Below, piece after piece: positions 45,301 through 47,296 of a stretch of 51,697 nucleotides of DNA (within the stretch, counting starts at the first letter, position 1; every line of letters starts with the position of its first letter). Made by a program: the position numbers and the translations under genes. The stretch is from an uncultured Acholeplasmatales bacterium (lineage in GTDB: Bacteria > Bacillota_I > Bacilli_A > Acholeplasmatales > Anaeroplasmataceae): positions 1-51,697 of the forward strand of contig CALUQZ010000010.1 of assembly GCA_944323055.1 (NCBI GenBank), read 5' to 3'. Under the pieces are notes generated by a model. That model did not search any database. It worked only from the letters and a program-made list of their open reading frames with translations, and was not told the origin of the DNA.

Positions 45301-45360
45301 CTTGATTTATTTAGTCATTAATGTTAATATTTAAATATAAATATGACCAAATAAATCAAG
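45301..45360. promoter_or_regulatory. 18-bp inverted repeat flanking the promoter of the AlbA_2-type regulator
   Basis: The arms at 45301-45318 and 45343-45360 are complementary at 17 of 18 positions. The 24-nt interval contains TATAAA (45336-45341) as a likely -10. The right arm contains GACCAAATAAAT (45345-45356), the same 12-mer that is repeated inside the gene it precedes, and the left arm contains it in reverse with one mismatch. The arrangement looks like a two-site operator, probably for autoregulation. GGAG at 45361-45364 serves the ATG at 45374. Confidence 0.68.
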
Positions 45361-45373
45361 GGAGTGAAGGAAT

Positions 45374-46729
45374 ATGAAGTATATTGAAGATATTACCCAT
45401 GAATTAAAAAGTGAACTTAATGATAGTGTTATTAAAGAGGTTATAGCTTTTTTAAATAGTAAAGGTGGAACTATTTATATTGGTGTTAATGACGATGGTA
45501 GTATTAATTTAAATTATACAAATAATATTGTGGTTGATGATGTTTATACTAAATTGCCTAATATGCTAGCAGATAATATTTATCCTTCATGTTATTCTTT
45601 AATTGATTTTCATTTTAATAATGATAATGTTTTAATAATCAATGTTAAAGAAGGAACAAAAAAGCCTTACTTTTTATCTAGTAAGGGACCTAGGCCAAGC
45701 GGAGTATATAAAAGAGTAGGATCAACAACAAGAAAAGCTAGTGAAGATGAAATTTTACAGATGGTTTTGAGTTCTAATAAATATATGTATGAAGATGAAG
45801 TATCTGAGGAACAAGAGTTAAATTTTACTTATTTAGGAAAAGTTTTTTCAGATAAAAACATTGAATTGTCAGAACATAATTTCTATTCATTTGGTTTAAA
45901 AAATAAAGATGATTATTACACTAATTTGGCTTATTTATTATCAGATGAATCTAATATTACTATTAAAATTGCCGAATATGATGAAAATTTAAATTTTAAA
46001 TTAAAAAAAGAGTTTACTGGTTCGTTAATTAAATTATTCTATTTAACTAAAGAGCAGTTAGATAGAATGAATGATAAAAAGGCAATTATTAATCTTAAAA
46101 CTTTTTCTCGAATAGAAACTTTATCATATCCAGAAATAGCAATTAGAGAAGTGTTATTGAATGCTTTTTGTCATGCTGATTATTTTATTAGGTCTAATAT
46201 AAAAATTGAATTTTTTGCTGATCATTTAAAAATTACAAATCCAGGCGGGGTTTATAATGCTACTTTAGCTGATGTTTTAAAAGGTATTCAAACATATAGA
46301 AACCCTCATTTAGTACATATTTTTGATAAATTAGGGTTAATAGAAAATTATGGAACTGGCATATCTAAAACTTTTTTAGCTTATCAAAATAGTGATAAAA
46401 AGCCTATATTTGAATCTTCTGAGAATTTCTTTTATGTTACATTACCTAATTTAAACTATAGCTCGAATGTTGACCAAATAAATGACCAAATAAACGACCA
46501 AATAAATGACCAAATAAATGACCAAATAAATGACGTTGGACTTGAGATTCTTAAGATTATCGCTGAATATCCAGGTTCTAAAACAAAAGATATTTATGAA
46601 AAACTACATGCTAAAGGGTTTAATGTTAGTTTAGATCAAATTAGGAATGCAATTAAGAGAGAATTAAAACCATATATAGAATTACGTGGTTCACGTAAAA
46701 CAGGTGGATATTATATTAATTTTAAGTAA
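45374..46729 (+). CDS. AlbA_2/Schlafen-type ATP-binding protein, putative transcriptional regulator
   Basis: The 451-aa protein has an N-terminal AlbA_2 (Schlafen-like) DNA-binding domain with THELKSELNDS and GGTIYIGVNDDG. GVYKRVGSTTRKASEDEI closes that domain. A HATPase_c_4 region follows, with PEIAIREVLLNAFCHADY, KITNPGGVY and LIENYGTGI. Five DQIN repeats (about residues 367-386) then link to a C-terminal winged helix with TKDIYEKLHAKG. Relatives are called RecG-like or divergent AAA-4 proteins and are thought to be regulators, some linked to defence. It has its own promoter region with a long inverted repeat. Target genes are unknown; itself is the best candidate. Confidence 0.85.
   Translation: MKYIEDITHELKSELNDSVIKEVIAFLNSKGGTIYIGVNDDGSINLNYTNNIVVDDVYTKLPNMLADNIYPSCYSLIDFHFNNDNVLIINVKEGTKKPYFLSSKGPRPSGVYKRVGSTTRKASEDEILQMVLSSNKYMYEDEVSEEQELNFTYLGKVFSDKNIELSEHNFYSFGLKNKDDYYTNLAYLLSDESNITIKIAEYDENLNFKLKKEFTGSLIKLFYLTKEQLDRMNDKKAIINLKTFSRIETLSYPEIAIREVLLNAFCHADYFIRSNIKIEFFADHLKITNPGGVYNATLADVLKGIQTYRNPHLVHIFDKLGLIENYGTGISKTFLAYQNSDKKPIFESSENFFYVTLPNLNYSSNVDQINDQINDQINDQINDQINDVGLEILKIIAEYPGSKTKDIYEKLHAKGFNVSLDQIRNAIKRELKPYIELRGSRKTGGYYINFK
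46472..46531 (+). repeat. Five tandem 12-bp repeats (GACCAAATAAAT) inside the regulator gene
   Basis: Units start at 46472, 46484, 46496, 46508 and 46520; only the second differs (last base C). They encode DQIN five times as a linker before the winged helix. The same 12-mer is in the gene's upstream inverted repeat. In-frame unit number could change by replication slippage. Confidence 0.93.
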
Positions 46730-46749
46730 GTTTTATGTTAAGAGTATTT

Positions 46750-46803
46750 AGACAAAAGTGGTACATATTTAATTAAATAATGTGTATAATTTTTGTCTTT
46801 TTT
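46750..46803 (+). terminator. Terminator-like hairpin after the regulator gene
   Basis: AGACAAAA (46750-46757) pairs with TTTTGTCT (46791-46798), the inner part (ACATATTTAAT with ATTAAATAATGTGT) can extend the stem, and the right arm runs into TTTTTT. It lies 21 nt after the stop codon. Confidence 0.65.
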
Positions 46804-46827
46804 ATATATTACAAGGTTATGATTTAG

Positions 46828-47287
46828 TTGATAAAGAAAATATACCTATTAATATTAACAACATTATTAACAGTAGTATTAAGTTCTTGTGCTTTTGATA
46901 GTTAATGAGGGCATATTATACATTTATAGAAGATGATTATTTCGTGTATGCTACTTATAATGATGTAGAAAACAGTTATATTTATATAATTATGAAGAGC
47001 CAAATGATGGATATTATTGGGTAGATAATTATGATAATAGTCTAATTGAATATATACCACCAGAACCTATAAGAGAAGGTTATGAATTTGCTAGATGGTA
47101 TAAAGAAGTAGAGTATATAAATAAGTGGGATTTTAGTAAAGATAAAACCAGTGATTTATATCGTCGTTATTATGAACCAGATGAAGATGATAGTGAAGAG
47201 TATAAAAAAGAATATTATGAATATATAAGTACACATACTTATGTAGAAACTAAGTTGTATGCTAAATGGATAAGTAAAATTAATTAG
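46828..47287 (+). pseudogene. Decayed lipoprotein gene with an InlB-type repeat
   Basis: From TTG 46828, the frame encodes a lipoprotein signal peptide (IKKIYLLILTTLLTVVLSSC) with the lipobox LSSC and stops after 25 codons. Another frame continues with DDYFVYATYNDVENSYIY. A third frame carries PPEPIREGYEFARWYKEVEY and ends ETKLYAKWISKIN, stopping at 47285-47287. The last part matches the InlB B-repeat (Listeria-Bacteroides repeat) pattern with GYxFxxWY and LYAKW. At least two frameshifts make it non-functional. An intact gene would have encoded a small surface lipoprotein. Confidence 0.72.
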
Positions 47288-47296
47288 AGGTGGATT

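Follow-up and report, generated by a model that had tools for sequence, protein, structure and literature searches.

Why should a short sequence that forms the candidate operator of a gene recur in tandem within the codons of the same gene? This question is raised by one locus of the window, i.e. the whole 51,697-nt stretch of DNA from an uncultured Acholeplasmatales bacterium that we analysed, in which a gene for a putative regulator of 451 aa (45374..46729, + strand) is situated in a chromosomal purine operon, in the order folD-gene-purB. The inverted repeat upstream of this gene (45301-45318 / 45343-45360) is complementary at 17 of 18 positions and starts nine bases past the folD stop codon. 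Its left arm, delineated by the inverted-repeat match (45301..45318, - strand), contains the core TTTATTTAGTCA at 45306-45317, and its right arm (45343..45360, + strand), with the core TGACCAAATAAA at 45344-45355, lies directly 5' of the ribosome-binding site; the 26-bp spacer between the two 12-bp cores (45318..45343, + strand) includes a weak -10 element, TTAATAT. The dodecamer GACCAAATAAAT is found exactly in the right arm (45345-45356) and as its complement, with one change, in the left arm (45305-45316). A scan of the window promoter found no sigma-70-like site, and the gene may be transcribed by read-through from the purine operon. In the 1.62-Mb genome, the operator pattern TATTTNGTCA-N18..34-TGACNAAATA has a single occurrence, at the regulator, and no further operators were recovered elsewhere by the inverted-repeat pattern.

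The second set of sites is a tandem array of five 12-bp units, GACCAAATAAA(T/C), which encode (DQIN)5 in the linker of the protein (46472..46531, + strand) and were delineated by tandem-repeat detection and codon fixation. The first-pass annotation had reported the dodecamer in both promoter arms and in five tandem copies within the gene, and this is indeed what the locus contains, with four of the in-gene units matching GACCAAATAAAT exactly and one, GACCAAATAAAC, differing by one change. The array is the strongest tandem repeat in the window (TRF score 121). All five exact copies of GACCAAATAAAT in the 1.62-Mb genome are located in the regulator gene. When up to two mismatches are allowed, the window contains 26 matches vs 17 +/- 4 in shuffled sequences, and the loose dodecamer is therefore only modestly enriched; its exact form is the informative one.

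The encoded protein comprises SLFN_AlbA_2 (residues 5-122) and HATPase_c_4 (residues 274-357) domains, followed by a disordered linker and a winged helix. Both Pfam domains score above the gathering thresholds (PF04326, 65.5 bits with a cut-off of 25.3; PF13749, 62.7 bits with a cut-off of 26), and beyond them Pfam returns just a sub-threshold match to Swi5, with no recombinase or transposase domain and no Rep domain, the latter placing the protein outside the iteron-type Rep initiators. In the AlphaFold2 model (mean pLDDT 72.6), residues 365-383 of the linker are disordered (pLDDT about 33), and residues 387-448 are modeled as a C-terminal winged helix with the H-H-H-E-E order of elements (46532..46717, + strand; pLDDT about 80-89), in agreement with the C-termini of two relatives, which match winged-helix families. 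This region is a likely candidate for the DNA reader, and the C-terminal similarity tracks the DNA motif only weakly (permutation p 0.07). The best solved structure matched by Foldseek is 3lmm (DIP2311 from C. diphtheriae; E 4e-16, TM about 0.4 over the full length), which is the best match of the regulator in both fold and sequence. Between the regulator and purB (46730-47296) there are about 570 bp with only a broken reading frame, whose sequence looks like the terminal part of a repeat-type surface protein; the folD-purB spacer measures 26-75 bp in members of the genus without the regulator.

The array codons are fixed. In the homologues with the same unit, Asp is encoded by GAC at 49/49 positions inside the arrays vs 62/311 outside (Fisher 9e-30), and Ile by ATA at 49/49 positions inside vs 156/421 outside; with one count per gene, the corresponding values are about 2e-9 and 1e-5. 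The array codons are identical among 11 genes that are mostly 50-60% identical. Wherever the promoter is readable, in nine DQIN and two DPIN genes, the operator is present, and thus none of these DQIN homologues lacks the motif at its promoter, the finding that the first-pass annotation had named as evidence against a shared site. L037, whose promoter is readable as well, brings the set to 12 clade members (9 DQIN, 2 DPIN, L037), all of which have arms of about 12 bp placed 24-26 bp apart, and nine of the 12 carry an exact TATAAT in the operator spacer at an offset of 5-8.

Operator and array change together repeatedly among homologues, in which the same annotation had suggested looking for co-variation of repeat number and operator sequence. 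In the DPIN genes L096 and L148, which are related and represent one evolutionary event, the array unit is GACCCAATAAAT and TGACCC appears in both operator arms. The SPNK gene L146, whose protein is nested inside the DQIN clade with support 99/99, has array units TCGCCAAATAAA / AATCGCCAAATA and TCGCC in both operator arms. A second clade behaves likewise: array and promoter both contain GTTGGG in L189, and both contain GTTGGT in L162, L164 and L166. The coding array has been lost from L037, which is the sister of the window gene and occupies the same place between folD and purB; instead, about six copies of the site follow its stop codon, ahead of purB. Among the 11 DQIN/DPIN genes, more operator mismatches go with fewer repeats (rho -0.80, p 0.003), a correlation confounded by relatedness.

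The wider family argues in the same direction. Tandem repeats with a period of 10, 11 or 12 are found in promoters of family members far more than in shuffled sequences, and wherever a gene copy is available for comparison its period equals that of the promoter: 12 in L194, L187, L075 and L048, 11 in L181, L163, L073 and L218, and 10 in L081. Units of 10 or 11 bp shift the frame from one copy to the next and therefore yield a peptide without a repeat matching the DNA unit. In L075, L187 and L194 the promoter copies are located upstream of the -10 element and are antisense to the gene copies, and are therefore read as DNA. Because the promoter and the array change together in related genes, the array very probably works as DNA and would supply further binding sites, embedded where the encoded protein is disordered. 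The comparisons establish, at the level of sequence, that the two sets of sites are identical, unique, co-varying and constrained as DNA.

A coding array with a 12-bp unit is present in 51 of the 190 family genes, which group into 33 unit clusters, and ten of these clusters match their own promoter, compared to 1.6 expected upon permuted pairing (p 2e-4); in a stricter set of 25 dissimilar proteins, the array-promoter match has a permutation p<=1.5e-4. In 25 of 136 non-redundant genes, a stretch of >=14 nt from the 200 bp upstream recurs exactly in the 3' region, and the controls give 1 (mid-gene), 1.6 (permuted pairs) and 3/95 (neighbouring genes). Some of these matches are within the linker and others are direct repeats past the stop codon, a few of them from tandem gene copies. 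The explanation of the 3' sites as a promoter of the next gene is not general, as in several cases no forward gene follows. Among 167 genes, tandem repeats in the linker have a period of 12 in 49, 11 in 4, 10 in 2 and 13 in 3, with none in the mid-gene control. No promoter match is seen for about half of the genes with an array (NDTI, NGEI, TTQE, GAEN and others), and in the distant members encoded in restriction or BREX operons arrays are present with no matching promoter or nearby site found. Coding repeats of 11 bp are also seen in the linkers of L180 (five perfect copies), L173 and L171, and of 10 bp in that of L228, none of them with a promoter match.

We favour, with moderate confidence, a scenario in which the product of the gene is a self-specific DNA-binding regulator whose site is present in two clusters, one serving promoter autorepression and the other acting as an auxiliary operator. 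The first cluster would be the one that overlaps the core promoter, as an inverted repeat here and as 10-12-bp tandem direct repeats in other members, and the second would be the one near the 3' end of the gene, either in the linker codons before the winged helix or just past the stop codon. The encoded protein is taken as the reader because the sites occur only at its own gene and differ between paralogues of the same genome (the window gene and L009). Autorepression is suggested by the overlap of the promoter sites with the -10 region, where the bound protein would block RNA polymerase. The second cluster, about 1.1 kb away, would most likely act as an auxiliary operator that raises the local concentration of the protein and joins the promoter site through a protein oligomer, with looping of the DNA; simple titration would be a milder form of the same effect. 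The first-pass annotation had envisaged a regulator that binds both places. Its claim of one DNA-level site in promoter and gene is upheld by the co-variation, the fixed codons and the family-wide relation, and the binding by the encoded protein, as well as the repression, looping and titration, are what we infer from these data.

The alternative that deserves most attention, though we consider it unlikely, is that the gene moves alone, as a mobile unit whose protein recognizes both ends of its own gene like a transposase, repression of the promoter being incidental. In about 25 pairs of family genes that are 72-96% identical and come from different genomes, the shared DNA is limited to the gene with roughly 30-135 bp of the 5' and 0-150 bp of the 3' flank (e.g. 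L096/L148), and a repeat common to the upstream and 3' flanks is found in 27/169 family genes vs 2/75 controls, in direct orientation in 26 of the 27. In the genus of the window, the folD-purB spacer is occupied in two genomes and empty in five, and in G003 (L303) it contains a lone site, TGACCAAACAAA / TTAAATGACCAAACAAATTAAG, with the regulator absent, possibly the scar of a lost copy. However, no recombinase domain was found, the coding arrays are about 200 bp inside the 3' end of the gene, and a clean target-site duplication is not defined. Moreover, tandem gene copies or fragments explain some flanking repeats (L189, L204, L264), the sharp limits of homology could reflect decaying non-coding flanks, and ordinary gene transfer with tandem duplication explains part of the pattern. 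The bolder version, in which single-gene mobile units carry the 3' recognition sites in their own linker, so that one sequence would be coding sequence, operator and element end at once, seems quite unlikely to us. An origin from viruses or phages was rejected, as no relatives were found in viral contigs. Direct repeats of 58-220 bp flank the family genes L138, L066, L264, L089 and L144; that of L138 corresponds to the 5' end of the host gene that follows.

The remaining explanations concern what the array itself does. It could be a relic without a function, left when a copy of the promoter unit entered the linker and multiplied there by slippage, and both the tolerance of a disordered linker for repeats and the variable presence and number of units (0 to 6) agree with such an origin. 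We regard it as decidedly improbable, given that the codons are fixed across the 11 divergent genes, that the promoter and gene copies of L075 and L187 agree in their cores but not at adjacent positions, and that the array and both arms change jointly on the tree. Control at the level of RNA, with the inverted repeat of a read-through mRNA forming a hairpin and the in-gene copies pairing with its left arm, draws on the predicted folding of the window inverted repeat as RNA (-21.2 kcal/mol, z -4.8). It is nevertheless very improbable: in relatives the arms flank the -10 box, which leaves the left arm outside the transcript, the promoter copies upstream of the -10 in L075, L187 and L194 are in tandem and do not form hairpins, and the in-gene array does not fold by itself. 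As a general mechanism, the RNA hairpin is ruled out by the position of the sites relative to the -10, and a sense-only mRNA motif by the antisense promoter copies in the same three genes. Finally, it is hardly credible that the peptide linker alone matters and that the promoter matches it by chance. The DQIN peptide is invariant in the clade, and ESRL arrays turn up on two plasmids, one cyanobacterial and one gammaproteobacterial, but the promoter matches are far above permutation; chance is ruled out by these permutations and the genome-wide uniqueness, and a pure peptide linker by the 10- and 11-bp arrays that encode no peptide repeat and by the post-stop sites of L037.

Our preferred scenario of an autoregulator with an auxiliary operator has partial parallels in well-studied systems. 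In the lac and gal systems, auxiliary operators within lacZ (O2) and galE pair a site in a coding sequence with one at the promoter and act by looping. The locus described here shares the pairing, and presumably the looping, but lac and gal have a single site in a target gene, whereas here a tandem array resides in the linker of the regulator itself and co-varies with the promoter. Plasmid Rep initiators (RepE, pi, RepA of pSC101) are winged-helix proteins with an inverted repeat at their own promoter and iterons elsewhere. The likeness lies in the combination of an inverted repeat at the own promoter with tandem direct repeats of the same core; in contrast to Rep systems, neither a replication origin nor a Rep domain was identified here, and the 10-12-bp repeats are in the gene itself. 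Transposases recognize subterminal repeats, such as the TnsB sites of Tn7 and the 12-bp TnpA motifs of En/Spm, and here too there are multiple short sites at both ends of the gene unit, one set overlapping the promoter; unlike in transposons, neither a recombinase domain nor a terminal repeat or a defined target duplication was found. Among characterized proteins, TrlG from Photorhabdus has the same two Pfam domains as the window regulator. It is described as a temperature-restricting protein from a three-gene operon, and the available part of that description does not mention repeats or operators (PMC7554251).

No earlier description of such arrays was found in the open-licence papers searched. 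They represent regulatory DNA sites within the codons of their presumed reader, placed at a disordered part of the protein and evolving with the promoter across a large bacterial family. They thereby offer a testable case of a coding sequence constrained as DNA, and a natural collection of protein variants with their matching operators and arrays, from which changes of specificity could be learned. They also provide candidate operators for a family that is otherwise poorly characterised and is encountered close to restriction and BREX genes. The genome of the window encodes at least four further family members or fragments (L007, L008, L009, L010), some of them with other linker repeats (GAEN, VNVG). 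The ESRL arrays of L309 (Pseudanabaena plasmid) and L311 (Azotobacter plasmid) have nearly identical 12-mers (GAGTCACGGCTA, GAGTCGCGGCTA), and these two genes sit inside restriction and BREX operons of different phyla.
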